A DNA stretch of 64,000 nucleotides, taken from Marinobacter sp. GTDB taxonomy: Bacteria; Pseudomonadota; Gammaproteobacteria; Pseudomonadales; Oleiphilaceae. The notes beneath the pieces were generated by a model. The model was not told where the DNA came from. It was given only the letters and a program-made list of their open reading frames with translations, and searched no databases. Position 1 is the first letter of the stretch. Each line of letters opens with the position of its first letter. Shown piece by piece: positions 12,770 to 31,788 of the stretch. The DNA lies in assembly GCA_014359475.1 (NCBI GenBank), contig JACIZI010000006.1, positions 1 to 64,000 of the forward strand, given 5' to 3'. The position numbers and the translations under genes were made by a program.

Positions 12770-12785
12770 TGCATGGATCATGCCA
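12770..12785 (-). promoter_or_regulatory. sigma-54 promoter of the system A operon
   Basis: The minus strand reads TGGCATGATCCATGCA, with invariant GG and GC ten bases apart. The ATPase start at 12723 lies about 35 bp past the predicted transcription start. An NtrC-like half-palindrome lies upstream at 12904-12918. Confidence 0.6.
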
Positions 12786-12812
12786 GGCGGGGATGAGGCC
12801 TGAGGAGTCCCC

Positions 12813-12853
12813 CTTCTTTCAGGACATAAAAGCACCTGTTGTCCTGAAAGAAG
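12813..12853. promoter_or_regulatory. 13-bp perfect inverted repeat, possible operator or RNA hairpin
   Basis: CTTCTTTCAGGAC (12813-12825) and GTCCTGAAAGAAG (12841-12853) are exact complements around a 15-base loop. It lies between system A and the GntR gene, upstream of the predicted sigma-54 promoter. It is therefore more likely a regulator site than a leader hairpin. The adjacent GntR protein is the obvious candidate ligand, but this is unproven. Confidence 0.55.
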
Positions 12854-12903
12854 CATTTGGCGGGGAATTTGTGCGCACAGATATGGAGCGAAAAAACCCC
12901 TGG

Positions 12904-12918
12904 CGCACTATGATCGGG
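12904..12918. promoter_or_regulatory. NtrC-like enhancer site
   Basis: The sequence is GCAC, seven bases, then GGGC, seven of eight positions of the NtrC core GCAC-N7-GTGC. It lies about 120 bp upstream of the system A sigma-54 promoter, a usual enhancer distance. Confidence 0.35.
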
Positions 12919-13014
12919 CTGAATTTGCGGCGCATTGAGCATCTGAATTCGTTGAAATCATCGTCAATCCGAATATGATGTATGCAACAGGGAGAAAACT
13001 TCAGGAGGTTTGGA

Positions 13015-13701
13015 GTGGTTTCAGGAAACCGCCAGTGGGTCGCTGACCGCATCTATGAGAGCTTGCGTTGCAGCATCATGAACTTCGAGCTGTATCCGGG
13101 CTCCCGGGTAACGGAAACGGAGCTGGCACAGCGCTTCGACGTCAGTCGTACGCCAATCAGGGAGGCGCTCCAACGGCTTGCGGTAGAGGGTTACCTGACC
13201 ATTCGGCCGAAGCACGGGTGTTACATACGCAACCTGGACGTCTTCGAACTGGCGGAGTATTACGATGTCCGTGTCGGGCTGGAAGTGGAAGCCGTTGAGC
13301 TGATGGGGCGCCGTATCCCCTACCGGGACCTGGCAGCGCTGGCGGAGGACTGGAACCCTGAGCATCTGAAGTATGGGGATGAAGGGACCGAGGCGCTCAA
13401 GGATGCTGAAGAGGATTTCCACATCCGCCTTGCCGAGCTGAGTGGCAACCCGATCCTTGTCCAGTACCTGCGCGACGTCAACAACCACATCCGCATTCTC
13501 CGCCGGCTGGGTTTTCCGGACCAGGATGCCGTGATCAGCACCTATCAGGAGCATTACGAGATCTGCCAGAGCATCCTGACAAACGATATTCCCAAGGCCT
13601 GCCGACTGCTTCGTACGCATATTCATGCCAGCCAGGCCAAAGGTAGGGAAGTGACCCTCGCGCAGCTGGAAATCCACCGACGTCGCGCCACTGGCGGCTG
13701 A
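13015..13701 (+). CDS. GntR-family (FadR/FCD subgroup) regulator
   Basis: This 228-residue regulator has an N-terminal winged helix at about residues 8-72 (VTETELAQRFDVSRTPIREALQRL) and a C-terminal FCD ligand-binding domain with candidate metal-binding His residues (about H133, H179, H201). I chose the GTG at 13015 because a perfect AGGAGG lies six bases before it. An ATG at 12982 would add 11 residues. It is transcribed away from the system A operon and just before the formamidase gene, so it may control either or both. The effector is unknown. Confidence 0.87.
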   Translation: MVSGNRQWVADRIYESLRCSIMNFELYPGSRVTETELAQRFDVSRTPIREALQRLAVEGYLTIRPKHGCYIRNLDVFELAEYYDVRVGLEVEAVELMGRRIPYRDLAALAEDWNPEHLKYGDEGTEALKDAEEDFHIRLAELSGNPILVQYLRDVNNHIRILRRLGFPDQDAVISTYQEHYEICQSILTNDIPKACRLLRTHIHASQAKGREVTLAQLEIHRRRATGG

Positions 13702-13709
13702 TATCCCCC

Positions 13710-13725
13710 TGGCACGGAACCTGCT
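13710..13725 (+). promoter_or_regulatory. sigma-54 promoter of the formamidase gene
   Basis: TGGCACGGAACCTGCT matches the -24/-12 consensus almost perfectly (TGGCACG, N4, then CTGCT). It lies 37 bp upstream of the ATG at 13762. It implies nitrogen-dependent transcription separate from the GntR gene. Confidence 0.7.
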
Positions 13726-13761
13726 GAGGTAGCCGGTACACATTCGAACCGGAGAATTAGC

Positions 13762-14763: not shown

Positions 14764-14772
14764 CGTGTGGCC

Positions 14773-14800
14773 GGGCCGGGGCTGATCCCGGCCCTTTGCT
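14773..14800. terminator. GC-rich hairpin between convergent genes
   Basis: GGGCCGGG (14773-14780) and CCCGGCCC (14787-14794) form an 8-bp stem with a six-base loop, followed by TTTGCT. A second stem, CGGACCC/GGGTCCG (14805-14833), follows. They separate the formamidase gene (plus) from the system B operon end (minus). Confidence 0.55.
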
Positions 14801-14838
14801 GTCGCGGACCCGATAGTCGCTGAAGTGGGTCCGTCCTA

Positions 14839-15480
14839 TCAGCTCTGGTTCTGCAGTCTCTGCCGCATCTGCTCCATGGTCGCCACCTCGGCAAACTCGT
14901 AGGCAAAAGTCGTCAGGGCCACCTTCTGAACTTCCTCCGCCGAAACGGTGCCCCAGCCCAGATCCGGATAGGACATGGCGGCATTGGCATCGCTGATGGC
15001 GATAACCTTGTACTCCCGGTGCACGGCATCGCGAATGGTGGTATCACAGCAGACATTGGTCACGGTGCCGCAGACCATCAGTGTGTCCACATCCCGCGAC
15101 CGCAGCACGGTGTCCAGATCGGTGCCGTGGAAGCCACTGTAAAACAGCTTGTCCACCACAATATCCCCTGGCTTGGGCGCCAGTTCGTCAATGATTTCCA
15201 CGTACGGGTTGCTGCGGGCCAGTACCTTGTCCACGTCCGGATACAGATCGCGCATCCTGCCAGTATCACTGCCATCGCCACGGACAATGTGTCTCAGATA
15301 GACAACCGGCACACCCATGCCGCGACAGGTGGCTGCCAGTTCCCGAATGGCAGGCACGATGTCAGCCGTGGACGGCACATACAGGGTCCCGTCCGGGTCA
15401 CAGAACACTTTCTGCATATCCACGATGACCAGGGCGGTGCGATCCCTCGTTGTCGGCCAGGGCTGCTGGAGCTTGGGCAT
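14839..15480 (-). CDS. RutB-like isochorismatase-fold cysteine hydrolase
   Basis: This 213-residue amidohydrolase has triad candidates D21 (VIVDMQKVF), K111 (VVDKLFYSGF) and C144 (TNVCCDTT). It resembles ureidoacrylate and N-carbamoylsarcosine amidases more than the two BiuH-like proteins at 6587-8002. It is the last gene of the system B operon, 3 bp after the dehydrogenase. It probably cleaves a ureido or carbamoyl product of the imported nucleobase. The exact substrate is not readable from sequence. Confidence 0.8.
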   Translation of the reverse strand: MPKLQQPWPTTRDRTALVIVDMQKVFCDPDGTLYVPSTADIVPAIRELAATCRGMGVPVVYLRHIVRGDGSDTGRMRDLYPDVDKVLARSNPYVEIIDELAPKPGDIVVDKLFYSGFHGTDLDTVLRSRDVDTLMVCGTVTNVCCDTTIRDAVHREYKVIAISDANAAMSYPDLGWGTVSAEEVQKVALTTFAYEFAEVATMEQMRQRLQNQS

Positions 15481-15483
15481 CGT

Positions 15484-16272
<789 letters not shown>

Positions 16273-16306
16273 CTAACGGTGTGATGGAGCGGATAGGCGG
16301 TATCCG

Positions 16307-17233
16307 TCATGTGCGTTCCTCGCGGATGAACGGCGTACCCAGGTCGGCGGGCTGGCTGCTGGTGTCGCGTTTGCTGGCCGCTACCCAGATCATCACGCCC
16401 AGGGTGATGGCGTAGGGCGCCATGAACACGAAGTACTGGGACAGCTTGATGCCGGAAGCCGCCAGCTGTGGGATCAGTGCTTCAATGCAGCCGAACAGTA
16501 CGGCACCAGCCAGCGCCTTCCAGGGGGACCAGCGGGCGAATATCACCAGGGCGACCGCAATCCAGCCGCGACCGCCGGTCATATTGGCAATCCACAGTTT
16601 GGTGCTGAGTACTGAAATAAAGGCCCCGGCCAAGCCGATCAGGGCGGCGCCCACCACGATGGCAGCGAGCCGGTAGCCCAGCACCGGAATACCGGCCGCA
16701 TCGGAGGCCTGTGGGTTTTCACCTACTGCCCGCAACCGCAGGCCTGGCGTTGACCGGTACAGTGCCCAGACTGTGACCAGGAAAATGACCGGTGTGAGGT
16801 AGACCACGATGTTCTGCACGAAGAACCGACCCACATAGGGCAGTTCCGACAGCGGCCACAGGGCAATGGCATGGAGTCCCGGCACTGGCTGGTTGGTCCA
16901 ACCCATCAGGGTGCCCACCAGGGTGCTCAGCCCCTGGCAGAAAAACACCAGCACCAGTCCGGAGATGACCTGGTTGATGCGCATCACCAGCACCATCAGC
17001 GCAAACAGCAGTGACACCACGCTGGCGGCCATCATGGCCATGATCAGGGCAATCGCGTTCTGCTCGAACGTCAGGTAGGCTCCAATGCCGGCGACGGCAC
17101 CGACCAGCATCAGACCCTCGGCGCCGAGGGCAAGGACGCCGGATTTCTCGGTAATGATCAGCCCCAGGGCGGCAAGGGCGAAGGGCACGGCGAACTCGGG
17201 GATGTTGCCGATCCAGCTTGTAATCAGATCCAT
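16307..17233 (-). CDS. BMP-type ABC permease, system B (YufQ type)
   Basis: This 308-residue inner-membrane permease has LGLIITEKSGVLALGAEGLMLVGAVAG, the usual BMP-permease motif, and about eight hydrophobic stretches. It lies 2 bp after its partner permease gene and is homologous in position to the 9121-10050 gene of system A. Confidence 0.87.
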   Translation of the reverse strand: MDLITSWIGNIPEFAVPFALAALGLIITEKSGVLALGAEGLMLVGAVAGIGAYLTFEQNAIALIMAMMAASVVSLLFALMVLVMRINQVISGLVLVFFCQGLSTLVGTLMGWTNQPVPGLHAIALWPLSELPYVGRFFVQNIVVYLTPVIFLVTVWALYRSTPGLRLRAVGENPQASDAAGIPVLGYRLAAIVVGAALIGLAGAFISVLSTKLWIANMTGGRGWIAVALVIFARWSPWKALAGAVLFGCIEALIPQLAASGIKLSQYFVFMAPYAITLGVMIWVAASKRDTSSQPADLGTPFIREERT

Positions 17234-17235
17234 GG

Positions 17236-18327
17236 TCAGTCTCCCATCTGCACACGGCGAATGCGGTGACGGATAAAAAAGTCGGATGAGGCCACACAGA
17301 TCACCAGTACCGCCTGGATCAGCTGCACCATGGCGAAGGGAATCTGGTAGAACACCTGCAGGCTACGACCGGCCACGAACAGGGTGGCGATCAACAGCGC
17401 GGCACAGGTGGCGGCGATAGGGTTATTGCGGGCCAGGAAGGCGATCAGGATGCCGGAGAAGCCGTAACCCACATAGAAGGAGTGGGTCAGTCGACCTTCC
17501 TGTCCCGCCGCGATCATCAGCCCGGCCAGGCCCGCCAAGGCGCCGGAGAACAGCACCGCCAGCAGAATGGTGCGGGCCACCGGTACGCCTACCGAGCGCG
17601 CCACCTGGGGGCTCTTGTCCACAAAGCGCAGATACAGGCCGCCACGGGAAATGCTCACAAACCACAGCACCAGCAGGGCGGTACCGATGGCGATGGGAAA
17701 AGACAGGCTCAGACCATTGGCCAGGTCCGGCAGCAGCTCAAAGCTCTCGTACTTCGGGGAATAGGGGAAGGCATCCTTGGGATCCTTCCAGGCGCCGTAC
17801 ATCAGGTGCAGCAGGAAGTTGATGGCAATGTAGTTGAGCATCAGCGTCGAGACGATCTCATTCACCTGCAGTTTCAGTCGCAGCAGCACCGGAGCGACGG
17901 ACCACAGCAGGCCGCAGACCATGGCAGCGATGACCATCAGCGGCAGGCGCATGGCGGGGCTGCCGATTTCCCATAGGGTGATGGCGGTGGCACCAATGGC
18001 ACCGAAGATCATCTGGCCCTCCAGACCCAGGTTCCAGAACCTGGCCCGGAACGCCAGGCAGCCCGCCAGGCCCACCATGATCAGGGGTGACGCCTGAAAC
18101 AGGACCGCTCTCAGGCTCTGGGCATCAAACAGGGTCAGGAACACAAACTCGTTGAGTAGTTCGCCGGCAGGTACGCCGGCCCACACCAGGATGGCGCCGG
18201 AAATCAGCAGTCCCATGATCAGCGAGCCCGTCAGGATCAGCGCCTGCCAGGGCCAGGCCATCTGCTGGCGCACTTCAAGGGTGTACCGGCGGTTCATCAG
18301 GGGGCGTCGTAATGCAAGTTCAGACAT
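17236..18327 (-). CDS. BMP-type ABC permease, system B (YufP type)
   Basis: This 363-residue polytopic permease shows RARFWNLGLEGQMIFGAIGAT and LRLKLQVNEIVSTLMLNYIAI, the YufP-type signatures. It begins 8 bp inside the end of the ATPase gene. With the gene at 16307-17233 it forms the channel of system B. Confidence 0.87.
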   Translation of the reverse strand: MSELALRRPLMNRRYTLEVRQQMAWPWQALILTGSLIMGLLISGAILVWAGVPAGELLNEFVFLTLFDAQSLRAVLFQASPLIMVGLAGCLAFRARFWNLGLEGQMIFGAIGATAITLWEIGSPAMRLPLMVIAAMVCGLLWSVAPVLLRLKLQVNEIVSTLMLNYIAINFLLHLMYGAWKDPKDAFPYSPKYESFELLPDLANGLSLSFPIAIGTALLVLWFVSISRGGLYLRFVDKSPQVARSVGVPVARTILLAVLFSGALAGLAGLMIAAGQEGRLTHSFYVGYGFSGILIAFLARNNPIAATCAALLIATLFVAGRSLQVFYQIPFAMVQLIQAVLVICVASSDFFIRHRIRRVQMGD

Positions 18328-19840
18328 GATTCACCATGGCTTGTCCAATGGCCTGACGGTCGGCCGGCCGGGAGAATTCGGCCACGATGCGACCGGCGGA
18401 CATCACGCCGATCCGGTCCGCCATGGCCATGACTTCATCCAGGTCCTCGCTGATCAGCAGGACCGCGGCACCATCGTTGCGGGCGGCCCGCAGGCGTTCG
18501 CGGACGGCTTCGGTGGCTTTGACATCGAGGCCCCGGCTGGGGCTATGGGCGAACACCAACCGCGGCGGGCGGCTGAACTCCCGGGCAATCACCAACTTCT
18601 GGGCATTACCGCCGGACAGCAGGGCCGCTTTTTGTTTCAGGGAGCGGACACCCTGAACATCGAACTGATGGACCGCCTTGGTGGCATCCGCCTCAATGGC
18701 CCGGGTTTTCAGGTACCAGAAGGGACCATAGCGACCGGAGTGGATGTCGCCCAGGGCAAAGTTGTCGGCGATGGACAGCGGGCCGGCGAGGGCAGAGCCG
18801 TAACGGTCGGCCGGGATTGATGCGATACCCAGGGCTCGGCGTTGGGCGGCATCCAGCTCGGCAAGGTCGCCTCCGCCGATGATTTCCATGTCACCCTGAA
18901 CCGGTTCCGGTATGCCCATCAGGGCATTGGCCAGTTCGCTCTGGCCGTTGCCACCGACACCGGCGATGCCGTAGATCTCGCCCCGGTTCAGGGTCAGGTC
19001 CAGCCCATTGAGGGCCCGGCGACCAGCGGTGCTGGTCAGGTCGCTGACCCGAAGGTAGGGCTCGCCGGGTGTCCGTTCGGCACTGGGCTGGTCGGTGTGG
19101 GTGGTGGATTCGCCTACCGTCAGGCGGACCAGTTCGTCCACCGATACCGAGTCGGGTCTGAGGCTGGTGACGGTGCGCCCGCCGCGCATGATGGTGACCT
19201 GGTCGGCGTAACGCAGCACGTCGTTCATTTTGTGGGTGACCAGGATGACGGCGGCGCCCTCCCGGGCAAAGCCCTGCACGGTGGTCAGCAGGCTCTCGGC
19301 TTCCTCCTCGGTAAGCACGGCTGTCGGCTCGTCGAGAATCAGTACCTTGGCGCCTGCCAGCAACACCTTGAGGATCTCCACCCGCTGTTGTTCAGCTATG
19401 GAAAGCCGATGAATGGGGGTATCAGGGTCGATATTGAACCCGATACGATCGACCATGGTGCGGATGTCCTCAGACACCCGACGCAGGCGCTCCCGGTAAA
19501 GCCCGCTGGTCTGGATATGGCCCAGGTTGAGGAGGATATTCTCGGCAACGGTGAAGGGTGCCACCAGCTTGAAATGCTGATGCACCATACCAATACCCAG
19601 TTTTGCAGCCTCCTTGGGGCCACGGAGCTTGACCGGGTTGTCATCAATGAACAGCGATCCGCCTTCAGGGCCATAGAGGCCGGCCACGATGTTCATCAGG
19701 GACGACTTTCCGGCTCCGTTTTCTCCCAGAAGGGCGTGGACTTCGCCCCACTTGGCGGTAAAGTCAGCATCAGCAAGGGCCTTGAAACCATCGAAGGTCT
19801 TGCTGACACCAGTCAGCTGGATCGCGTTCGGTTTACTCAT
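18320..19840 (-). CDS. two-domain ABC ATPase, system B
   Basis: This 506-residue ATPase has two nucleotide-binding domains. The first has Walker A (GENGAGKSS), signature (LSIAEQQRVEIL) and Walker B (LILDEPTAVL). The second has GVGGNGQSEL and LLSGGNAQKLVIAREF, with HSPSRGLDVKAT at the Walker B position, where Asp-Glu is replaced. Only the first site is therefore likely to hydrolyse ATP, as is usual in this family. It overlaps the binding-protein gene by ATGA. Confidence 0.88.
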   Translation of the reverse strand: MSKPNAIQLTGVSKTFDGFKALADADFTAKWGEVHALLGENGAGKSSLMNIVAGLYGPEGGSLFIDDNPVKLRGPKEAAKLGIGMVHQHFKLVAPFTVAENILLNLGHIQTSGLYRERLRRVSEDIRTMVDRIGFNIDPDTPIHRLSIAEQQRVEILKVLLAGAKVLILDEPTAVLTEEEAESLLTTVQGFAREGAAVILVTHKMNDVLRYADQVTIMRGGRTVTSLRPDSVSVDELVRLTVGESTTHTDQPSAERTPGEPYLRVSDLTSTAGRRALNGLDLTLNRGEIYGIAGVGGNGQSELANALMGIPEPVQGDMEIIGGGDLAELDAAQRRALGIASIPADRYGSALAGPLSIADNFALGDIHSGRYGPFWYLKTRAIEADATKAVHQFDVQGVRSLKQKAALLSGGNAQKLVIAREFSRPPRLVFAHSPSRGLDVKATEAVRERLRAARNDGAAVLLISEDLDEVMAMADRIGVMSAGRIVAEFSRPADRQAIGQAMVNHV

Positions 19841-20925
19841 TGCTGCGTGATCACTCCGTCAACGAACCAGTCCATCTGCCAGAGTTCACCGTCGGGAATG
19901 GATTCACCCGCAGCGGCCCTGACATTGCCGTCCTGATCGCTCAGCGGGCCGGCGTAGACATCCAGCTCACCGTTCATCAGCTTTTCACGGGCGGCCATGA
20001 TCCTGGCTTCCTCATCTTCGGAGATGTTCGGGCCACAGCAGGCGATGTCGGTGCCGCCCTCTTCCATGGACAGCAGCGCGCCGTTTTCCCGGGGGACCCA
20101 GTTGCCGGCAATGATTTTCTCCAGCTCGGCTTTCAGGAAGCGGTCCCAGACCCAGACGGACGAGCAGACGGTGGCTTCAGGGGCGAATTCACGGAAATCC
20201 CGGTGGTGACCGGTGCCGTAAACACCGTTTTCCTGGGCGACCAGCTGCGGTGTGGGGGTATCCACGTGCTGGCCGATGACATCCGCACCCTGATCGATCA
20301 GAGCCTGGGTGGCGGAGCGTTCCTTGGTGGGATCGTTCCAGGCACCGGTGTAGACCACGGTCACGGTGGCATCCGGATTCATCTCGCGGGCGCCCATGGC
20401 GTAGGCATTGATGGTCCAGTTCACCTGGCCGAACGGGTTGGCGGCAACGAAACCGAGCTTGCCGGTCTCCGAAGCGGCTCCGGCGGCCATGCCGCAGAGA
20501 TACTGGCTTTCATAGGTACGACCGTAGAACGACAGCAGGTTGGGGCCATTGGTCGTGCCGGAACCGTTCAGGAAGGCTACGTCCGGGTATTCTTCGGACA
20601 GCGACTTGAAGGTATCGGAGTAACCAAAGGCGGTGCCGATGATGATATTGGCGCCGCGCTGGATGAAACGCTCAACGGCCGGCCGAATCGCAGAGGCGGA
20701 CTCTGGCACGCTCTCCACATACCGGATCCGGATGTCCAGCTCGTCCTCCAGGCGCTGGCGGGCTTCGTCGAACGCCTGGGTCCAGCCGCCATCGTTGGTG
20801 GGTGAGATGTACAGCATGGCCACTTTGGGTGGACCGTCGAGCGTAAGGCCCTCGGCGGCTGCGGTGTTTGCCAGGCCAAAGAAACTGGCCAGCGCGAGAC
20901 AGGCACTGAGTACGAGGTTTCTCAT
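19837..20925 (-). CDS. BMP-family substrate-binding protein, system B
   Basis: This 362-residue periplasmic protein has a signal peptide ending near ANTAAAEG. BMP motifs are KVAMLYISPTNDGGWTQAFDEAR, GTAFGYSDTFKSLSEEYPDVAF and CGMAAGAASETGKLGFVAANP. It is the first transporter gene of system B, ahead of its ATPase and two permeases. A short chimeric reading frame (20958-21323) precedes it. It probably binds a nucleobase or nucleoside, since the operon continues into a YdfG-like enzyme and a RutB-like hydrolase. A RutR-like site lies upstream of the operon. Confidence 0.87.
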   Translation of the reverse strand: MRNLVLSACLALASFFGLANTAAAEGLTLDGPPKVAMLYISPTNDGGWTQAFDEARQRLEDELDIRIRYVESVPESASAIRPAVERFIQRGANIIIGTAFGYSDTFKSLSEEYPDVAFLNGSGTTNGPNLLSFYGRTYESQYLCGMAAGAASETGKLGFVAANPFGQVNWTINAYAMGAREMNPDATVTVVYTGAWNDPTKERSATQALIDQGADVIGQHVDTPTPQLVAQENGVYGTGHHRDFREFAPEATVCSSVWVWDRFLKAELEKIIAGNWVPRENGALLSMEEGGTDIACCGPNISEDEEARIMAAREKLMNGELDVYAGPLSDQDGNVRAAAGESIPDGELWQMDWFVDGVITQQ

Positions 20926-20957
20926 TATGGATACTTCCTTTGGTTGGGTGGGACGAT

Positions 20958-21323
20958 TTACATCATATGGTTGATGCGGAATACATTGCCTTCCGGATCC
21001 AGGAGCACAGCCTGGTACCAGTTGTAATAGGTGGTGTAGGGCTCTTTCACGATCTGGTTGCGCACCTGCAACCCGCCGGGGGAGTTATCCGGCTTGACGA
21101 TGGTAAGGCTGCCATAGTCGCTGCGGGGACCGGCCCCCATCTGGTCCTCTTCGATATTGGTGCCTTCGGCAGCGGCACTGTAACCACGGACCATGTCTGG
21201 TCTCGGGCGGTCGGCCTTGTCCTGGCAGGCCCGGTCAACCGCTTCGGCCACCTGTTGTTTTCCGTCGGTAGAGCCCTCGAAATAGGGCCCGAGATCAATG
21301 GTTGGTACATGTTGCAGCTTCAT
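20958..21323 (-). pseudogene. chimeric remnant of a 2OG-Fe(II) oxygenase joined to a VOC-like tail
   Basis: This 121-residue open frame is built of pieces. Residues 1-34 match the N-terminal DIOXN start of isopenicillin-N-synthase-like oxygenases (VPTIDLGPYFEGS). Residues 43-50 match their VRGYSA segment. Residues about 62-87 match the catalytic SDYGSLTIVKPDNSPGGLQV segment, but the His of the HxD motif is Arg. The last 28 residues (YYNWYQAVLLDPEGNVFRIN) look like the end of a glyoxalase/VOC protein. About 190 residues of a normal oxygenase are missing. It is open and in the first position of the sigma-54-driven system B operon, so it could still be translated. Enzyme activity is unlikely. 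Confidence 0.65.
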
Positions 21324-21427: not shown

Positions 21428-21479
21428 CTTAGTTCTGTTCTTATAAAACAATATGTTATGAACCCAAGGTTTTTTGATG

Positions 21480-22417: not shown

Positions 22418-22432
22418 GCACAAACCAAGTGC
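22418..22432. promoter_or_regulatory. NtrC binding site upstream of rutA
   Basis: GCACAAACCAAGTGC carries both NtrC half-sites (GCAC-N7-GTGC) exactly. It lies about 78 bp upstream of the rutA sigma-54 promoter. The E. coli rut operon is also activated by NtrC. Confidence 0.6.
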
Positions 22433-22437
22433 TCTAA

Positions 22438-22457
22438 TTCAGACCAATTGGTCTGAA
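22438..22457. promoter_or_regulatory. RutR operator, 20-bp perfect palindrome
   Basis: TTCAGACCAATTGGTCTGAA is a perfect palindrome with the RutR core GACCA-N2-TGGTC. It lies between rutR and rutA, immediately next to the NtrC site, so RutR may block NtrC as well as rutR transcription. Confidence 0.75.
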
Positions 22458-22509
22458 TAAACCATAAAGAATTAGTCAAGGCTATGAAAATAAAGCTAAA
22501 AAATGATTC

Positions 22510-22525
22510 TGGTCAATATTATGCA
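22510..22525 (+). promoter_or_regulatory. sigma-54 promoter of rutABCDEF
   Basis: TGGTCAATATTATGCA has invariant GG and GC ten bases apart, and lies 70 bp upstream of the rutA ATG. The -24 element is less perfect than others in the locus, but the NtrC site upstream supports it. Confidence 0.6.
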
Positions 22526-22595
22526 GCCGACCCGTTGACATCGGTGGGCAGAATCTTCGAGTCCACCTTCCTATTGGCAACCTTAGGGGAAACAG

Positions 22596-23687
22596 ATGAA
22601 CGTCGGAATTTTTATACCCATTGGTAACAACGGCTGGCTGATCTCGCGCAATGCGCCCCAGTACATGCCCACCTTTGAACTGAACAAGGAAATCACCCAG
22701 AAAGCCGAGAGCTACGGATTTGATTTCGCCCTGTCGATGATCAAGTTGCGTGGCTTCGGCGGTGAGACCGAATTCTGGGAACACAACCTGGAGTCATTCA
22801 CACTGATGGCTGGCCTGGCGGCGGTGACCAGCAAGATCCAGCTGTTTGCGACGGCCGCCACCCTGACGATGCCACCGGCAATCGTTGCGCGGATGGCCTC
22901 CACCATCGATTCCATCTCCGATGGCCGCTTCGGTATTAATCTGGTGACCGGCTGGCAGAAGCCTGAGTACTCCCAGATGGGGCTCTGGCCGGGGGATGAA
23001 TTCTTCGGAACCCGTTACGAATATCTGGGGGAATATGCGCAGGTGCTGCGTGACCTTTGGGCCACCGGTCGCAGTGACTTCAAGGGTGAACACTTCCAGA
23101 TGGATGACTGTCGCGTCAGCCCCATCCCCAAGGCGGACATGAAGGTGATCTGTGCTGGTCAGAGTGAGGCGGGCATGGCCTTTACCGCCAGGTACGCCGA
23201 CTACAACTTCTGCTTCGGCAAGGGCGTGAATACACCCACCGCCTTTGCGCCGACGGTGGAGCGGCTGGTCAAGGCCACTGCGAACAGCGGCCGAGAGGTC
23301 AGTTCCGTGGCGCTGTTCATGATCATTGCGGCGGAAACCGATGAAGAGGCCCGCGAACGCTGGGAGTGGTACAAGGAAGGCGTTGATGAGGAAGCCATCG
23401 CCTGGCTGGGGGAGCAGGGCGCCGCGGACAAGACCTCAAAATCCGATACCAACGTTCGCCAGATGGCGGATCCCACCTCGGCGGTGAACATCAATATGGG
23501 CACCCTGGTGGGTTCCTATGAAACCGTTGCCCGCATGCTGGATGAAGTGGCTACGGTGGAAGGCACCAGTGGTGTCATGCTGACCTTCGATGACTTCGTA
23601 AAGGGCGTGGAAGACTTCGGCAAGCATATCCAGCCGCTGATGAAGAGCCGTGCCCATGTGAATGAGCAGTTGGAGCCGGCGGTATGA
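22596..23687 (+). CDS. rutA: pyrimidine monooxygenase RutA
   Basis: This 363-residue flavin-dependent oxygenase of the bacterial-luciferase superfamily opens the uracil ring between N3 and C4, giving ureidoacrylate (peracid form) with reduced FMN from RutF. Recognisable RutA segments include [20 protein letters not shown] at the N-terminus, [31 protein letters not shown] and [21 protein letters not shown]. Length agrees with E. coli RutA. It is first in a tightly packed operon, overlapping rutB by ATGA. Confidence 0.95.
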
Positions 23688-24454
23688 GTATCGCGACGGA
23701 ACAGTCCGGCTATGCCCTGAATACCGGTTCTGAACCTGCACTGGAGCTGCCCGGAAAACCGGAGCCGTTGCATATGCGGGCCAGTGAGACTGCACTGGTG
23801 GTAGTGGACATGCAGAACGCCTATTCCACCATCGGCGGTTACCTGGACCGGGCCGGTTTTGATGTGTCAGCCACCGGGCCAGTGATCCGGCAGATCCAGA
23901 AGGCCATTGGCGCTGCCCGTGCCGCGGGTATGCCGGTGATCTTTTTCCAGAACGGCTGGGATTCGGAGTATGTGGAAGCCGGCGGGCCGGGATCGCCCAA
24001 CTGGTATAAGTCCAATGCGCTGAAAACCATGCGGCGGGAGCCCGAGTTGAACGGCAGTCTGCTGGCCAAGGGTACCTGGGACTATGAGCTGGTTGACGAC
24101 CTGCAGCCCATGGACGGCGATATTGTTATTCCCAAGCCTCGTTACAGCGGGTTCTTCAACACGCCATTCGACAGCATCCTGCGTAGCCGTGGTATTCGTA
24201 ACCTGGTGTTTACCGGCATCGCCACCAATGTCTGCGTGGAATCCACCCTGCGGGATGGCTTCTTCCTGGAATATTTTGGTGTCGTGCTGGCGGATGCCAC
24301 CCACCAGGCGGGACCGGACTACATCCAGCAGGCGTCGCTCTACAACATCGAGACTTTCTTTGGCTGGGTGTCCTCTACCGAGGACTTCTGCCACACCTTC
24401 TCACCGCCGGCCAACGCTGCTGACAGCCAACCATCCCAAACGACCACTGCATAA
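23684..24454 (+). CDS. rutB: ureidoacrylate amidohydrolase RutB
   Basis: This 256-residue isochorismatase-fold cysteine hydrolase splits ureidoacrylate into carbamate and aminoacrylate. The triad is D42 (VVVDMQNAY), K151 ([10 protein letters not shown]) and C184 (ATNVCVEST). It is about 25 residues longer than E. coli RutB, mainly from an N-terminal extension and a Ser/Gln/Thr-rich tail (residues 243-256). It starts inside the rutA stop codon. Confidence 0.94.
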
Positions 24455-24477
24455 CTTACTGACTCGAGGAACTGATC

Positions 24478-24867
24478 ATGCCCAAGACTTCCGTTATTCC
24501 AGAAGGCAGCGGCAAGCCGCTGGCCCCCTACGTACCTGGTTCCATGGCTGATGGCATCGTCTACGTTGCCGGCACCCTGCCGTTCGACAAGGACAACAAT
24601 GTGGTCCACGTGGGCGACCCCGAGGCCCAGACCCGCCATGTGCTGGAGACCATCAAAGGCGTTGTCGAAACCGCCGGTGGCACCATGGACGATGTCACCT
24701 TCAACATGATCATGGTCACCGACTGGGCCCACTATGGGGCGGTCAACAAGGTCTACGCCGAGTACTTCCCCGGCGAAAAGCCGGCCCGCTACTGCATCCA
24801 GTGTGGTCTGGTGAAGCCGGACGCGCTGGTGGAAATCGCCAGTATTGCGCATGTGGGGAAAGGATGA
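24478..24867 (+). CDS. rutC: Rid-family protein RutC
   Basis: This 129-residue YjgF/YER057c/UK114 (Rid) protein hydrolyses or deaminates 3-aminoacrylate toward malonic semialdehyde. The signature [19 protein letters not shown] holds the substrate-binding Arg, and [21 protein letters not shown] is the typical early strand. It is 23 bp after rutB and overlaps rutD by ATGA. Confidence 0.94.
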
Positions 24868-25697
24868 GCGATAGCGCACTGGACCTTTACTGGGAAAGCC
24901 AGGGTCCCGCCGATGGCGAGACCGTAGTGCTCAGTGCCGGCCTGGGTGGGTCCGGCCAGTACTGGGCGCCTCAGTTGCCGGCATTGAGGGAACGCTATCG
25001 GGTTCTGGTGTACGACCATTTCGGCACCGGCCGCAGCGGTGGTGAGATACCCGAGCACTACACCGTGGCCGATATGGCCGATGAGCTGGAAGTGATGCTG
25101 ACCACGGCAGGCGCCGAGCGAGTACATCTGGTGGGCCATGCCCTCGGTGGCCTGATCGGTATCGAGCTGGCGCGACGGGTGCCGGAACGGGTTGGCAGCC
25201 TGTTCCTGATCAATGCCTGGGCGTCACCCAATGCCCACACCCGCCGGTGTTTCTCGGTGAGGCGGACCCTGCTTGACGAGGCGGGGCCTGCGGCCTACCT
25301 GGAAGCCCAGCCCCTGTTCCTTTACCCGCCGGTGTGGATCGCAGAGAACAGTGAGTGGCTGGAACAGGAGTCCGCCCGCGCCCTGGCCAGTTTCCCGTCG
25401 CGGAACAACCTGTTGCGTCGGATGACCGCCCTTCAGGCCTGGCAGCCCTCGGCGGTTGATCTGGCAAAGGTCCGCACCGGCGCCATGGTACTGGGCAGTC
25501 GCGACGATGCCCTGGTGCCCTGGAGCTGTTCCCAGGAGCTGGCGCTGCGCCTGCCCAATGCCAGCGTGAGGCTGCTGCCAGTTGGTGGGCACGCCGTCAA
25601 TGTAACCGAACCGGAGCGGGTGAACGCCCTGTTACTGGCCCATCTTCAACGGCACAGGCTGCCCACGCATTCGCTCAAGACACAGGAGGCTCCATGA
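24864..25697 (+). CDS. rutD: alpha/beta hydrolase RutD
   Basis: This 277-residue alpha/beta-hydrolase-fold protein is proposed to speed aminoacrylate or carbamate breakdown. It shows [13 protein letters not shown] (oxyanion region), [11 protein letters not shown], the nucleophile-elbow segment [13 protein letters not shown], with Ala in place of the usual Ser as in RutD, and a C-terminal His ([11 protein letters not shown]). I chose the ATG at 24864, overlapping the rutC stop, rather than the ATG at 24801 inside rutC. E. coli RutD has 266 residues. Confidence 0.92.
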
Positions 25698-26284
25698 GCC
25701 AGACACTGGATAACCATGCTCTCGGTCAGCTGTTCACCGAGGCTCGCACCCACAACAGCTGGCAGGACCGGCCAATTAACGATGACGACCTTCGCCAGCT
25801 CTACGATCTGGTGAAGATGGGGCCCACCTCCGCCAACTGTGGCCCGGCCCGCTTTGTCTTCGTCCGCACCTCCGAGGGCAAGGCGGCTCTGGAGCCGTGC
25901 CTGTCCAGCGGTAACCGGGACAAAACCATGGGCGCGCCGGTGACGGTGATTGTCGCCTACGACGAGCAGTTCTACGAAAAATTACCGGACCTGTTTCCCC
26001 ACGGTGATGCCCGTAGCTGGTTCACCAGCAGTCCGGAAATGGCTTATGAAACGGCCTTTCGCAACAGTTCCATGCAGGCGGCTTACCTGATCCTGGCGGC
26101 CCGTTCAATGGGGCTGGACACCGGACCCATGTCCGGGTTCGATGCGGGCAAAGTCAATGAAGCCTTTTTTGCGGGTACGACCTGGAAGGTCAACCTGTTG
26201 ATCAACCTCGGTTACGGGGACACTGACAAACTCTATGGCCGGCTGCCGCGTCTGGAATTCGACGACGCCTGTCGCCTGGTCTGA
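25694..26284 (+). CDS. rutE: malonic semialdehyde reductase RutE (nitroreductase family)
   Basis: This 196-residue FMN-binding nitroreductase-fold enzyme reduces malonic semialdehyde to 3-hydroxypropionate. It shows [40 protein letters not shown] at the N-terminus and [15 protein letters not shown], both typical of RutE/HadB proteins. It overlaps rutD by ATGA. A YdfG-like enzyme in the system B operon may do the same reaction. Confidence 0.94.
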
Positions 26285-26297
26285 GAAGGAGCGCATC

Positions 26298-26864
26298 ATG
26301 AAAGCACAGCACTCAATAAGTGAGGCACTGACCATGCCACCGCGGGTGGACAAGCAGAGTTTCCGGGATGCCATGTCGACCTTGGCGGCTGCGGTCAACG
26401 TGGTGACGACGGATGGCCCCGGTGGCCGAGCCGGTTTTACTGCCACCGCTGTCTGCAGTGTCTGCGACGAGCCACCTACTCTGCTGGTGTGCCTGAATCG
26501 TGGTACGTCGGTTTACGATGTCTTCAGTCGCAACGATGCTCTATGCGTGAACACGCTGACGGATGCCCAATCTGATCTCTCAAACCTGTTTGGCGGCAAG
26601 AGTTCAATGGACGAACGCTTTGCGGCTGCCACCTGGGAGCAGTCGGTGACCGGGGCGCCAGTGCTTGAAGGCGCTCTGGTCAGTTTTGATTGCACCATCA
26701 GCAAGCGGGTCAACGTCGGTACCCATGACATCCTGTTCTGTGAAGTGGCGGGCGTCTGTCAGCGGCAGGACTCGGGCAGCCTCGTCTACTTTGATCGAGG
26801 CTACCATCATCTCAAGGCTCTGAGTGACTCAGTAGGTCAGCGAATTAACCAGGCGGGACACTAG
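26298..26864 (+). CDS. rutF: flavin reductase RutF with repeat-derived C-terminus
   Basis: This 188-residue NADH:FMN reductase supplies reduced flavin to RutA. The flavin reductase domain is clear ([77 protein letters not shown]). I chose the ATG at 26298 because AAGGAG lies a few bases before it. Homology to E. coli RutF (164 residues) stops at about YFDRGYHHL. The last 17 residues ([17 protein letters not shown]) are encoded by dispersed repeat copy 2. The stop codon shares CTAG with the stop of the convergent amidohydrolase gene. Confidence 0.93.
26812..26864 (+). repeat. dispersed gene-end repeat, copy 2
   Basis: This matches 101-153 at 50 of 53 positions. It forms the last codons and stop of rutF. 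Its terminal CTAG also gives the stop codon of the minus-strand amidohydrolase gene. Together with copy 1 it brackets about 26.7 kb in direct orientation. Confidence 0.85.
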
Positions 26865-28222
26865 TCTGCCAGACTTGCAGCTATCCGGTTCTGCTCCTCA
26901 ATAATATGGGGCAGTGACCGGGTCAGCAGTTCGCCGTCCTCGATAACCACGCGACCGTTGATGATGCTCCAGTCCACCCGGGGTGGCGTACAGAACACCA
27001 GCGATGCGATCGGGTCACTCTGGCCACCGGCCATGGCGATGTCATCGGTGCGGAAGGCGACGATATCGGCGCAATAGCCGGGCTGGATGCGCCCCAGGGC
27101 ATCGCCCCGGCCCAGCACTTCCGCGCCGCCACGGGTAGCCATGCGCAAGGCCTCGCGGGCTGTCATGTCGCCGGGATTCTGTTCGCGTACCCGGGCCGAC
27201 AGCATGGCCAGCCTGGCTTCATCCAGCAGGTTGCCAGTGTCGTTGGAGGCGCTTCCGTCCACGCCCAGGCCGACCTTGACCCCGGCATCCAGCATTTTCC
27301 TCACCGGCGCGATGCCGGAGGCCAGGCGCATGTTAGAGCAGGGGCAGTGGGCGACGCCGGTACCGGTGTGGGCAAACAAGGCAATGCCCGGGTCGTCCAG
27401 GTGGACGCAGTGGGCGTGCCAGACATCGTTGCCCACCCAGCCCACGTCCTCGGTGAACTCCGTGGGTGTCATGCCATAGCGTTCCTTGCTGAATGCTACA
27501 TCCTTCCAGTTTTCCGCGGTGTGGGTGTGCAGGCCCACGTTCAGTGACCGGGCCATGGTGGCCGCCTCCCGCATCAGTTCGGTGGTCACGGTAAATGGCG
27601 AGCAGGGTGCCAGGGCGATACGCACCATGGCATCCGGACTGTGATCGTGATGAGCCTCCACCACCCGCTGCATGTCCCTGAGGATAGCGCTTTCGTCCGC
27701 CTCCACCAGCTCATCCGGCGGCAGCCCGCCCTGGCTCTGGCCCAGGCTCATGGCACCCCGGGCCCCATGGAAGCGGATGCCCATCTCGGTGGCGGCCTGC
27801 ACGCTGTCATCCAGGGTAATGCCATTGACGTGCAAGTAAGCATGGTCGGCTGCCGTGGTACAGCCGGACAGCATCAGCTCCGCCATGGCGGTCCGGCTGG
27901 CGGCCCGCTGCATGGCCGGGGTGATATTGCGCCACACCGGGAACAAGGCGCTGAGCCAGTCGAATAGCTCACCATTCTGGGCGGCGGGCAACGCCCGGGT
28001 CAGGGACTGGAACATATGGTGGTGGGTGTTGATCAGACCGGGAACCACCACGTGGCCTTCCAGGTTGATGGTGCGGTCGGCTTCGTTCGGGCACTCGGCC
28101 ATGGGGCCGACCGCCTCAATGCGGTTGCCGCGGATCAGGATATAGCCGTTGCCGATTTCGCGCTGGTCGTCGTCCATGGTGGCGATAACCCGGGCGTTCT
28201 TCAGTAGCAGCGTTTGCGTCAT
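26861..28222 (-). CDS. 8-oxoguanine-deaminase-like amidohydrolase
   Basis: This 453-residue amidohydrolase-superfamily deaminase (TrzN/AtzB/SsnA group) has metal ligands visible as HxH at H67/H69 (INTHHHM), a third His in LHTHTAENW, and Asp in [11 protein letters not shown]. Overall it resembles Pseudomonas 8-oxoguanine/isocytosine deaminase, which converts 8-oxoguanine to urate or isocytosine to uracil. Isocytosine deamination would feed the Rut pathway. I chose the ATG at 28222; an ATG at 28285 would add 21 residues and would lie upstream of the predicted transcription start. It is convergent with rutF, sharing CTAG at the stops. Confidence 0.82.
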
Positions 28223-28265: not shown

Positions 28266-28281
28266 TGCAAGAGTAGTGCCT
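28266..28281 (-). promoter_or_regulatory. sigma-54 promoter of the amidohydrolase gene
   Basis: The minus strand reads AGGCACTACTCTTGCA. GGCAC and TTGCA match the consensus, with GG-N10-GC spacing. Transcription would start near 28255, about 33 bp before the ATG at 28222. Confidence 0.65.
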
Positions 28282-28300
28282 TCACTAACCTGTAGAAAGG

Positions 28301-28316
28301 CTGACTTTGTGGTCAT
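28301..28316. promoter_or_regulatory. RutR-like operator between amidohydrolase and oxygenase genes
   Basis: CTGACTTTGTGGTCAT matches 10 of 14 fixed RutR consensus positions (TGAC and TGGTCA kept). It is weaker than the site at 28421-28436. It lies upstream of the amidohydrolase promoter. Confidence 0.35.
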
Positions 28317-28398
28317 AAAAGTGGCGTCGTGCACCTGGATGAAGCAATGGTTCCGCTTCAATGGGCTATGTGCAGGCATGTTTAGGTGGTGTAGGGAG

Positions 28399-28414
28399 TG
28401 GCACATCCGTTGCA
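28399..28414 (+). promoter_or_regulatory. consensus sigma-54 promoter of the oxygenase operon
   Basis: TGGCACATCCGTTGCA is TGGCAC-N5-TTGCA, a full match to the -24/-12 consensus. Transcription would start near 28425, inside the RutR-like site that follows. Confidence 0.75.
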
Positions 28415-28420
28415 AATAAC

Positions 28421-28436
28421 CTGACCAATTGGCTAA
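28421..28436. promoter_or_regulatory. RutR-like operator over the oxygenase transcription start
   Basis: CTGACCAATTGGCTAA matches 11 of 14 fixed RutR consensus positions and shares ACCAATTGG with the rutR-rutA palindrome. It covers the predicted start of the sigma-54 promoter at 28399-28414, a position suited to repression. Confidence 0.55.
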
Positions 28437-28465
28437 CAAATTCTGGAAAAGCAACGGGGGAGAAC

Positions 28466-29416
28466 ATGGCAGATCAAGCAAAGGAGGGGATACCCGTGAT
28501 TGATTTCGGGCCTTTTCTTGACGGCTCACAGGTGGACCAGCAGGCGGTCGCTGAGCAGATGCGTCAGGCCAGCCGTGACTGGGGGTTCTTCTACCTGGCG
28601 AATTGCGGAATGCCGGCGGAGTGGCTGGCCGAAGCCTTTGCCGCGTCGAAGGCATTCTTCGCGCTGCCAACGGACGAGAAAAACCGGGTCGCCTGGCAGA
28701 GCGCGGAAAGTAACCGTGGTTATGTGGGCATCAAGCGGGAACGACTCGATCCGTCACGACCGGGGGACCTCAAGGAAGCCTATAACCTGGCGCCGGAACA
28801 ACCGGAGCCGGATGCCCACAAGAACCTCTGGCCAGAGGGGCATCCGCAGTTCGAGAAGACCATGACCCGATTCCTGGACGAGTGCATCCATACGGCGGAC
28901 CGCGTGTTGCAGGCATTCGCCCTGGCCCTGGGGCAGCCTGCGGACTTCTTTGTGGACGCCCATAATCTGCATCATCACACCCTGCGGTTGCTCCATTACC
29001 CGCCACTGCCGGAAGGCTTCGAACCCCACGACGGCGAAAGCCGTGCCGGCGCCCATACCGATTACGGCAGCATCACCCTGCTGTTCCAGGACGATGTGGG
29101 TGGTCTTGAAGTACAAACCCGCGCCGGCGAGTGGATCCGCGCCACGCCGATTCCCGGCACGGTGGTGGTCAATACCGGTGACCTGATGCACCGCTGGACC
29201 AACCATGTGTTCTGCTCCACGCCCCACCGGGTGAACGTGGCGCCGGAGCATCGCCATCGTGATCGCTACTCCATCGCCTTCTTCTGTCATCCCAACAAGG
29301 ATGCGGAAATCGCCTGTATCGATTCCTGTGCGACGGCGGATAATCCACCCCTCTATGGCCCGATTACCGCGGGCCAGCATCTCCACGAAGAGCTCACCAA
29401 TACCTACGGAACCTGA
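28466..29416 (+). CDS. 2OG-Fe(II) oxygenase, isopenicillin-N-synthase-like
   Basis: This 316-residue cytoplasmic oxygenase has the DIOXN domain at residues 8-110 (IPVIDFGPFLDG, ASRDWGFFYLANCGMP) and the catalytic jelly roll from about 175. Iron ligands are H197, D199 (AHTDYGS) and H254 (STPHRV), and the 2-oxoglutarate motif is R267/S269 (RYSIAFF). I chose the ATG at 28466 because it lies downstream of the predicted promoter. It is cotranscribed with an NMT1/THI5-type binding protein in a nucleobase locus. Fungal thymine 7-hydroxylase belongs to the same superfamily, so oxidation of a methylated or substituted base is a fair hypothesis. The substrate cannot be read from sequence. Confidence 0.85.
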   Translation: MADQAKEGIPVIDFGPFLDGSQVDQQAVAEQMRQASRDWGFFYLANCGMPAEWLAEAFAASKAFFALPTDEKNRVAWQSAESNRGYVGIKRERLDPSRPGDLKEAYNLAPEQPEPDAHKNLWPEGHPQFEKTMTRFLDECIHTADRVLQAFALALGQPADFFVDAHNLHHHTLRLLHYPPLPEGFEPHDGESRAGAHTDYGSITLLFQDDVGGLEVQTRAGEWIRATPIPGTVVVNTGDLMHRWTNHVFCSTPHRVNVAPEHRHRDRYSIAFFCHPNKDAEIACIDSCATADNPPLYGPITAGQHLHEELTNTYGT

Positions 29417-29439
29417 ACTCCCTGAACGAGGACGTAACC

Positions 29440-30447
29440 ATGACAACACTGAAAACACTGGCTGCCGGGATTACCCTGTCCCTGTGTGCGCTCTCCGGGT
29501 TCGCCCGGGCGGAAGAGCTGACCCCGGTCACCGTGGCCACCACCTGGTACGCCCAGGCTGAACACGGTGGTTTTTACGCCGCCAAGGCCATGGGGATCTA
29601 CGAGGACTACGGTCTGGATGTCACCATCAAGATGGGCGGCCCCCAGGTGAACAACGTCCAGCTGCTGATGGGCGGCTCGGTGGATTTCATCATGGGTTAC
29701 GCCCTGCAATCGCTCAATGCCGTGCGCCAGGATATCCCGCTGGTCACCGTGGCGGCGTTTTTCCAGAAGGACCCCCAGTCACTGGTGGTGCATACCGGCG
29801 TTGGTCACGACACCCTGGAGGACCTCAAGGGCAAGCCGATGCGGGTGCCTACCGCCGGTCGGGTCGCCTATTGGCCCTGGCTCAAGACCGAATACGGCTA
29901 CACCGACGACCAGCTGCAGGCCTACGACTACAGCTTTGCTCCGTTTATCCGGGATGAGCAGACTATTCAGCAGGGCTACGTCACCAATGACGGTTTCTTT
30001 CTGGAGCAGGCCGGGGTCGAGGGCAAGAGCCTGCTGCTGGCTGACTATGGCTGGGAAGCCTATTCCGCGACCCTGGATACCACTGCCGAGATGATTGAGG
30101 AGAATCCTGAAATCGTGCAGAAGATGGTAGAGGCCACCGCCAAGGGCTGGGAAGCCTACTTCGAGAATCCGGCCCCGGCCAACGCCCTGATCAAGAAGGA
30201 CAACCCGGAAATGCAGGACGAACTGCTGGCTTACAGCCACGCGAAAATGCAGGAGGAAAGCATCCTGCTGTCCGGCGCGGCCGAAGGCGGTCAGTACGGC
30301 ATGATGACCCGTGAACGCTGGCAGGCCTTCTTCCAGGATATGGTTGCGGCGGGCACCCTGCCGGAAAACCTTGATTGGGAAAAAGCTTTTGACCTGCGCT
30401 TCGTGGAAGCGGTTTACGAGGCGGGGCGGGCTGAACCCCAGGGCTAA
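29440..30447 (+). CDS. NMT1/THI5-like binding protein, orphan receptor
   Basis: This 335-residue periplasmic binding protein has a signal peptide (residues 1-24, cleavage near FARAEE). It has the family start VTVATTWYAQAEHGGFYAAKAMGIYEDYGLDV and KMGGPQVNNVQLLMGGSVDF. It is a close paralogue of the binding protein at 33908-34903, sharing WYAQAEHGGFY, MGGPQVN and WPWLK.EYG. No ATPase or permease gene follows directly, so it probably docks on one of the channels encoded downstream. It is 23 bp after the oxygenase gene. Confidence 0.87.
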   Translation: MTTLKTLAAGITLSLCALSGFARAEELTPVTVATTWYAQAEHGGFYAAKAMGIYEDYGLDVTIKMGGPQVNNVQLLMGGSVDFIMGYALQSLNAVRQDIPLVTVAAFFQKDPQSLVVHTGVGHDTLEDLKGKPMRVPTAGRVAYWPWLKTEYGYTDDQLQAYDYSFAPFIRDEQTIQQGYVTNDGFFLEQAGVEGKSLLLADYGWEAYSATLDTTAEMIEENPEIVQKMVEATAKGWEAYFENPAPANALIKKDNPEMQDELLAYSHAKMQEESILLSGAAEGGQYGMMTRERWQAFFQDMVAAGTLPENLDWEKAFDLRFVEAVYEAGRAEPQG

Positions 30448-30452
30448 CCCAA

Positions 30453-30483
30453 CGGGCCACTGCCAACATGGTGAGCCCGGTTT
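30453..30483 (+). terminator. terminator-like hairpin after the orphan binding protein
   Basis: CGGGCCAC and GTGAGCCCG pair as an eight-base-pair stem with one bulged A, followed by GTTTCTTCC. It is a modest intrinsic terminator just after the stop codon at 30447. Confidence 0.4.
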
Positions 30484-30695
30484 CTTCCTGTGAGGGTCTC
30501 ATAGGAGGGCGTGTCGTGTTTTCATGCACTGGTTTTGAGCGTCTGGTCCGGACGAGGGGTGGTCCCTGATCCGTGTTTTATCCTCAATGCCCGGATGTGG
30601 TCCGGGGGTCGAAGGCGGCCAAAAAGGCGAAATGCGTCGTTTTGCCGATGCATCCAGGGATGCTGTCGGTAAATATACAACAGGCAATTTGAAGC

Positions 30696-30711
30696 TGGCC
30701 TGCGATTTGCT
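30696..30711 (+). promoter_or_regulatory. sigma-54 promoter of the second NMT1-type transporter operon
   Basis: TGGCCTGCGATTTGCT has TGGC and TTGCT with GG-N10-GC spacing. Transcription would start near 30722, about 60 bp before the ATG. Confidence 0.65.
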
Positions 30712-30726
30712 TTCTTCTGATAAAAC

Positions 30727-30742
30727 CTGACCGACTGTTCAA
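30727..30742. promoter_or_regulatory. RutR-like operator downstream of the promoter
   Basis: CTGACCGACTGTTCAA matches 11 of 14 fixed RutR consensus positions. It lies just past the predicted start of the promoter at 30696-30711, much like the arrangement at the oxygenase operon. Confidence 0.5.
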
Positions 30743-31786: not shown

Positions 31787-31788
31787 GT

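Follow-up and report, generated by a model that had tools for sequence, protein, structure and literature searches.

The 64,000-nucleotide stretch of Marinobacter sp. DNA considered here, called the window throughout, is part of contig C56 in genome G000 (3.69 Mb) and carries a nucleobase locus that includes rutR and the rut operon. The original prediction was that sigma-54, NtrC and RutR may govern this locus as one regulon. Genes were assigned by Pfam and NCBIfam profiles. The rutR gene (21618..22313, minus strand) encodes a TetR-family regulator whose closest Protein Data Bank (PDB) match is E. coli RutR (1.1e-73), and rutABCDEF (22596..26864, plus strand) is identified by RutA (TIGR03612, 703.6 bits) and by its Pfam domains, which occur in order. 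Two operons on the minus strand encode transporters with BMP-type binding proteins. System A (7289..12723) is an ATP-binding cassette (ABC) system with an ATPase, two permeases, a BMP protein and an isochorismatase-fold hydrolase; its start codon is assumed, the mechanical open reading frame (ORF) starting at 12774. System B (14839..20925) encodes an isochorismatase-fold hydrolase, an SDR protein, two permeases, an ATPase and a BMP binding protein. Beside it, at 20958-21341 on the minus strand, a 127-amino-acid ORF resembles a remnant of an oxygenase gene (oxygenase 2) fused by internal deletions to the C-terminal end of an adjoining VOC-type gene; both genes are longer and apparently whole in relatives. 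A GntR-family regulator gene lies at 12982..13701 (plus strand; its NCBIfam GntR-regulator matches all fall below cut-off, and the true start is probably further in), and a formamidase gene lies between it and system B. Downstream of rut are an 8-oxoguanine deaminase-type amidohydrolase gene (26861..28222, minus strand; NF006055, 659.7 bits against a cut-off of 532; PDB 7ww2, 1.8e-180), referred to below as the deaminase, and a 2-oxoglutarate/Fe(II) oxygenase gene (28466..29416, plus strand; Pfam DIOX_N and 2OG-FeII_Oxy) whose best solved match is thymine dioxygenase (PDB 5c3p, 2.1e-62); both start codons are assumed. An NMT1-type ABC operon (30782..33358, plus strand), recognised by its Pfam domains, encodes a binding protein, an ATPase and a permease. 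The named relatives that share the locus are Marinobacter, for example M. salarius R9SW1.

All seven GG-N10-GC promoters that had been predicted are where they were said to be, and they are conserved. The sites before system A (12771..12785, minus strand) and formamidase (13710..13724, plus strand) are each kept in 6/6 loci, and those before system B (21413..21427, minus strand, upstream of the oxygenase-2 remnant) and rutA (22510..22524, plus strand, with a weak −24 element in this genome) in 7/7 aligned loci. The deaminase (28267..28281, minus strand) and oxygenase (28399..28413, plus strand, 0 mismatches) promoters are present in 13/13 aligned loci, each with 9/9 key columns invariant over 10 distinct rows. 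The NMT1-operon promoter (30696..30710, plus strand) is present in 16/16 loci, with 7/8 key columns invariant over 13 distinct rows. The exception is the deaminase in two further loci, G082 and G089, which shows neither the sigma-54 promoter nor the operator discussed below. Five of the seven sites are individually unusual, with <1% of random 150-bp windows drawn from this DNA doing as well; the NMT1-operon (nmt2) promoter (8% of random windows as good) and the rutA promoter (42%) are not unusual singly. The mean of the seven was reached in 0/200000 draws of seven random windows. Because the operons were originally picked for having such sites, conservation is the better test. The system-B promoters of the named loci score at least 18.5 of 21.5 in 48/48 cases, TGGCACNNNNNTTGC occurs 20 times genome-wide versus 3 for the reversed control, and rpoN and ntrC are present in the genome. 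A shared sigma-54 layer is thus well supported by conservation in most of the orthologous loci. The two consensus sequences behind the scoring, that of sigma-54 and that of the NtrC core, appear in PMC8743547.

Putative NtrC boxes are more uneven. The best, TGCACAAACCAAGTGCT (22417..22433, plus strand), is centred at −111 from the predicted rutA start, matches 9/10 core positions (p 0.006) and is found in 7/7 aligned loci. One box between the deaminase and the oxygenase (28330..28346, plus strand) would be shared by both genes (8/10, p 0.05), with related sequence recognisable by eye in the aligned loci. The NMT1 operon has TGCACTGGTTTTGAGCG (30525..30541, plus strand) centred at −189 (8/10, p 0.05), and the formamidase box also matches 8/10 (p 0.05). 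The NtrC-like boxes give moderate support for NtrC activation in the window. The proposal of a single sigma-54/NtrC layer stands for sigma-54 by conservation; for NtrC, the putative box is good at rutA, marginal at formamidase, at the deaminase/oxygenase pair and at the NMT1 operon, and at chance level at systems A and B. Two genes elsewhere in the genome score above the ntrC family cut-off (G000:C38:116-1492, 763 bits; G000:C25:5791-7167, 761 bits), representing either a true duplicate or an assembly matter, and window positions 50328-51323 and 52891-54279 hold further NtrC family model matches below cut-off.

Five RutR-like palindromes had also been predicted. All five exist, and they fall into different classes. 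RutR from the window passes the NF011584 cut-off (279 bits against 230) and misses that of TIGR03613 (325 against 368); the amino acids that correspond to the uracil-contacting W77, Y97, W167, Q171 and Q179 of E. coli RutR are conserved in 7/7 orthologues. A palindromic RutR matrix (consensus TTCAGACCAnnTGGTCTGAA) was trained on 61/70 non-Marinobacter rutA upstream regions after removal of near-copies. Training was seeded with the E. coli consensus and took one best site per sequence, so that a site in 61/61 holds by construction; training-site scores run from 13.8 to 31.8. The two best matches in the window are the operator TTCAGACCAATTGGTCTGAA before rutA (22438..22457, centre −88.5, score 32.0, present in 7/7 aligned loci) and the operator before system B (21478..21497, centre −86.5, score 17.7). 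These are referred to as class I. For system B, the evidence lies outside the training sites: 48/48 promoters of named loci (7 Marinobacter, 41 other) have a RutR site of at least 8 bits. These comprise 27 promoters before oxygenase 2 (including the 7 from Marinobacter) and 21 directly before the binding-protein gene. Such a site occurs in 0/24 control stretches inside the operon, taken upstream of the binding-protein gene in operons led by oxygenase 2, and in 146/4000 random stretches of the same loci. The site is centred at −86 to −88 in 42/48, at −76 in one and at −38 in five. Similarly, the RutR site of rutA promoters is centred −85 to −91 from a GG-N10-GC-like site in 63/77; for 12 other ranges, including one that overlaps −85 to −91, the count is 0 to 10 of 77. 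Together, these patterns strongly support RutR control of rutA and system B. Enteric rutA promoters have their RutR site near −108. Across the rutA promoters L038-L117, the boxes shift between genera by approximately whole helical turns (RutR at −76, −87 and −108; NtrC at −99, −110, −130 and −152), hinting that the face of the DNA matters. In the distance measurements behind this comparison and behind the system-B centres, L056 and L057 were assigned an incorrect sigma-54 site.

Counting consensus matches was less useful. A consensus scan against shuffled sequence finds the window enriched (10 matches with at most 3 mismatches versus 2.6 expected, with 0/100 shuffles reaching as many), and these matches include 3/5 of the originally predicted sites. 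Genome-wide, with up to 2 mismatches allowed, TGACCANNTGGTCA shows almost no enrichment (336 matches versus 301 for the reversed control). Counting was dropped, the window being enriched and the genome hardly so, with the classes not told apart.

The other three palindromes are poor RutR sites. On the matrix trained outside Marinobacter, the site at 30725 ranks ninth in the window (3.2), that at 28419 thirteenth (2.3) and that at 28299 twenty-third (−1.5). The first two are designated class II and resemble operators linked to R2, a paralogue of RutR. The oxygenase operator (28419..28438), centred at +3.5, scores 18.0 on the R2 matrix versus 7.6 for RutR, with 11/11 key columns invariant; the oxygenase alignment covers 13/14 loci, L211 (a second copy, 68%) having been left out. 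The NMT1-operon operator (30725..30744), centred at +12.5, scores 15.6 versus 6.6 and is present in 16/16 loci in 15 genomes. The third site is an operator-like TGAC-N6-GTCA before the deaminase (28299..28318, centre −53.5), present in 13/13 aligned loci. On the RutR matrix, the deaminase sites of relatives score 4.7 to 12.3 in 5/6 named loci, somewhat better than the window site. A further class II-like palindrome (14.6 bits) lies at 56093-56112. At 30448-30781, a third oxygenase, found on the minus strand in relatives, is missing from this genome; in relatives it has its own RutR/R2-like site upstream (3/3 aligned loci). Alignment rows for further oxygenases (oxy3 = 1, oxy4 = 2) are too few to use.

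R2 is encoded on a different contig (G000:C31:3937-4626). It is 40-42% identical to RutR and has the TetR_C_3 domain in common with it; the recognition helix differs, and R2 falls below both RutR cut-offs (192.9 bits against 368 and 166.9 against 230). Its neighbours are genes for xanthine dehydrogenase, allantoinase PuuE, ureidoglycolate lyase, urate oxidase and guanine deaminase, and it also adjoins an ABC transporter whose permease family is that of systems A and B. The purine side is chemically sensible: 8-oxoguanine deaminase makes urate, and the R2-linked genes would degrade that urate. What connects R2 to the class II sites? First, R2 tracks them. In a survey of 124 Marinobacter genomes (rutR at E 1e-80, R2-type at E 1e-70, xdhA at E 1e-100), R2-type genes and xdhA occur in an identical set of 25 genomes, 20 with R2 itself and 5 with only a 72% copy, and R2 is present in 15/15 genomes that have the NMT1 operon versus 10/15 for rutR. 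Second, class II operators lie beside the R2-linked genes. The gap between xdhA and the transporter has two in 20/20 aligned loci (exact patterns matched 19/20 and 18/20, the remainder being recognised by eye; the alignment covers 21/30 loci, and G118_x2, beside an R2 copy, was excluded from the count). These further class II sites are centred at +10.5 (the C31 transporter) and −27.5 (xdhA). Third, matrices built from R2-linked sites are preferred over RutR for the sites found at the NMT1 operon (16/16), the oxygenase (13/13) and guaD2-type genes (5/5, these five having been collected by pattern). The same comparison prefers RutR for rutA (7/7) and system B (44/48). In the alignment of am2 and guaD2 (9 rows), the site is present in 5, degenerate in G094 and absent from G028, G035b and G000. 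Thus, R2 is the likely regulator of the oxygenase and the NMT1 operon, whose sites match R2-linked operators and track R2.

An alternative is that the regulons overlap, with R2 as the main owner of class II and RutR also binding where both proteins exist, giving joint pyrimidine-purine control. The recognition helices are related (DVSKTNLFYYF in RutR and GLPKSNVLYYF in R2), 4/5 uracil-contact residues are kept in the five aligned R2-type proteins (the G033 protein is not among them), and the RutR matrix gives the R2-linked operator before xdhA a score of 15.2. However, the two site classes separate well (area under the curve 0.96; 38 distinct sites in one class, 28 in the other), and their spacing to the promoter differs. 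Overlap is rather unlikely.

Far less survives of the view that RutR represses rutA, system B, the oxygenase, the deaminase and the NMT1 operon together. A GACC/GGTC-like core is common to all five operators, and the RutR and R2 motifs are similar. The main test comes from genomes that have the sites and lack rutR. The NMT1 operon is present in 15/124 genomes and rutR in 11/124; rutR is missing (no match at E 1e-80) from five of the 15, namely G067, G094, G082, G026 and G033. The NMT1 operator is intact in 16/16 loci, including those of all five rutR-less genomes, and the oxygenase and deaminase operators are intact in 13/13 aligned loci, including those of rutR-less G067, G094, G033 and G026. 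On an NMT1 tree, in which 5/10 inner branches are unsupported, rutR presence changes at least 2 times, and 4 times by parsimony, so the class II sites seem to have outlived several changes in rutR presence. That sites are kept without rutR contradicts RutR control of the oxygenase and the NMT1 operon, and probably of the deaminase; for the first two, so does their R2-type score. The low ranks of the three sites on the RutR matrix point the same way. A single RutR regulon, which we regard as very improbable, was rejected on the persistence of class II sites in rutR-less genomes. With it goes the proposal that RutR governs transporters, oxygenase and deaminase as one unit; system A and formamidase moreover have no RutR-like site, and none was listed for them in the original prediction.

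Marginally less probable still is a third regulator, common to these genomes, as the owner of the class II sites. Co-occurrence alone cannot name the protein. However, the gap between a TetR-family gene and its divergent neighbour is a usual place for a TetR-family operator, and between the 72% R2 copy and divergent xdhA there is an R2-type operator of the same motif in 8/8 loci, 5 of them in rutR-less genomes. Finally, the idea that the weak palindromes are chance matches draws on the near-equal genome-wide counts and is refuted by conservation: conservation is higher in the motif columns (sigma-54 and operator columns pooled) than in the remainder of those upstream regions, with random placements matching them in 0/20000 cases for the oxygenase/deaminase region and 53/20000 for the NMT1 operon, so chance can be given almost no weight. 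The three sites are conserved elements.

The rutR-less genomes also show how the locus is put together. The stretch that holds system B, the oxygenase-2 remnant, rutR and rutABCDEF (14764..26860, ~12 kb) is absent from G033 and G026, in which the matched ends of formamidase and the amidohydrolase are 73 bp apart. The rut genes and system B are absent from the 26-34 kb stretches of the five rutR-less genomes, system B not having been sought elsewhere there; in these stretches, the amidohydrolase and NMT1 genes remain beside xdh and R2 genes. Thus, the block of rut genes and system B, flanked by formamidase and the amidohydrolase, behaves like a unit that can be removed.

System A appears to have a repressor of its own. 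The alignments of the regions upstream of system A and formamidase show no site for RutR or for R2. A palindrome, TTGCATGCAA (TTGYATRCAA; 12757..12766), lies at the predicted system A start in 6/6 loci and is a likely GntR operator. A near copy with one mismatch, TTGCATACAT, lies at 12978-12987 before gntR, also in 6/6 loci. As the motif occurs both at the system A start and before gntR, the neighbouring GntR protein is the likely repressor of system A.

How might these elements work together? The most probable arrangement, which we favour with reasonable though far from complete confidence, combines common sigma-54/NtrC activation with separate local repressors for each operon, with the RutR part as a removable block. 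The locus would be an island for scavenging nitrogen. When nitrogen is limiting, the sigma-54 promoter before each operon would be activated, most likely by NtrC, and RutR, R2 and GntR would each repress their own operons until a ligand appears. From the sequence features described above we infer the binding proteins, their ligands and the direction and mode of regulation. RutR, sensing pyrimidines, would act at about −87 on rutA and system B, ~22 bp from the NtrC-like box at about −110. It would probably interfere with the enhancer or with enhancer looping, a mode suggested by the adjoining positions of the RutR site and the NtrC-like box. R2 would act at about +4 on the oxygenase, about +13 on the NMT1 operon and perhaps −54 on the deaminase, and would probably block RNA polymerase, as the position of its site at the start suggests. 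The neighbouring GntR protein would probably cover system A.

A more specific reading goes further, and we hold it tentatively, at somewhat below even chances. Under this reading, RutR was duplicated and the copies diverged, one to repress pyrimidine genes and the other purine genes. Their operators would be near-identical and told apart mainly by one base and by position, and a removable RutR block would sit inside an R2-governed purine island, so that two substrate signals are read next to each other on one NtrC/sigma-54 platform. The base before the GACC-like core would be mostly A or G for RutR and T for R2, with the qualification that the collection patterns for the R2 matrix fixed TGAC in one half, so that the T|T count is partly built in. 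At −87, some two helical turns away from the NtrC box, RutR would be an anti-activator of the enhancer, and R2 at the transcription start a polymerase block.

Several findings weigh against separate repressors on a common activation layer. The NtrC-like boxes of systems A and B in the window match 7/10, which is chance level; upstream of system B, a box with at most two mismatches is found in 38/41 loci outside Marinobacter and in 0/7 Marinobacter loci. The high RutR-matrix score of the R2-linked operator before xdhA has a counterpart in the rutA site, which scores 17.7 on the R2 matrix, and enteric RutR sites carry a TGACC half, close to the other motif. The RutR and R2 motifs are close, and cross-binding is therefore possible. 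The good score of an R2-linked operator on the RutR matrix slightly weakens the case for separate local repressors and for the paralogue split, and cross-binding is slightly the more probable. The deaminase site has no class assignment, with 6/13 favouring RutR and 7/13 R2 by matrix, and its operator is absent from two loci that have the deaminase (G082 and G089). Upstream of three distant R2 homologues, the class II palindrome is clear at L243, weak at L241 and absent at L242. One of the genomes counted as rutR-less, G026, is a draft that is 87% complete.

What are the implications of separate repressors on a shared activation layer? First, this arrangement sets right an interpretation that look-alike operators invite naturally but wrongly. 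Second, it suggests targets of a RutR-type regulator that occurs with purine genes and has been little studied. Third, the same promoters with and without rutR are a natural experiment in how paralogous repressors share promoters. Fourth, the near-constant spacing between RutR and NtrC sites makes anti-enhancer repression directly testable. In the open-access literature, no paper was found that treats a thymine dioxygenase together with RutR. For a purine-side TetR regulator of RutR type, a single paper among the matches listed appeared pertinent (PMC12694930), and a two-paralogue split with look-alike operators and a removable RutR block was not found among the matches listed.

Parts of this picture have parallels in known systems. 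In Pseudomonas stutzeri A1501, an ntrC mutant is reported to make poor use of several compounds, including uracil, thymine, cytosine and uric acid (PMC8443478). NtrC switching on the island under nitrogen limitation would fit this result, which is a phenotype only; the same source lists formamide in a contrasting group. The purine-side regulator of that one paper, PA1504, is a RutR-type TetR protein near purine genes whose role is left open by its authors; R2 resembles it in domain make-up and in its purine neighbourhood. Multi-operon RutR regulons have already been predicted in the RegPrecise RutR regulogs, with 68 regulons, 743 genes and 10.9 genes per genome; the part of that source at hand names no Marinobacter targets with which this locus could be compared (PMC5343134). 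A close comparison is with the E. coli rut operon, in which the rutA promoter is known to have sigma-54, NtrC and RutR sites (PMC8743547 and PMC10891134). The Marinobacter locus is alike in having a rutA promoter with these three kinds of site and in keeping the uracil-contact residues of RutR. It is unlike the E. coli operon in two respects: the ORFs scanned between 22.6 and 36.6 kb include no rutG-like permease, and RutR would here also cover a BMP-type ABC transporter.

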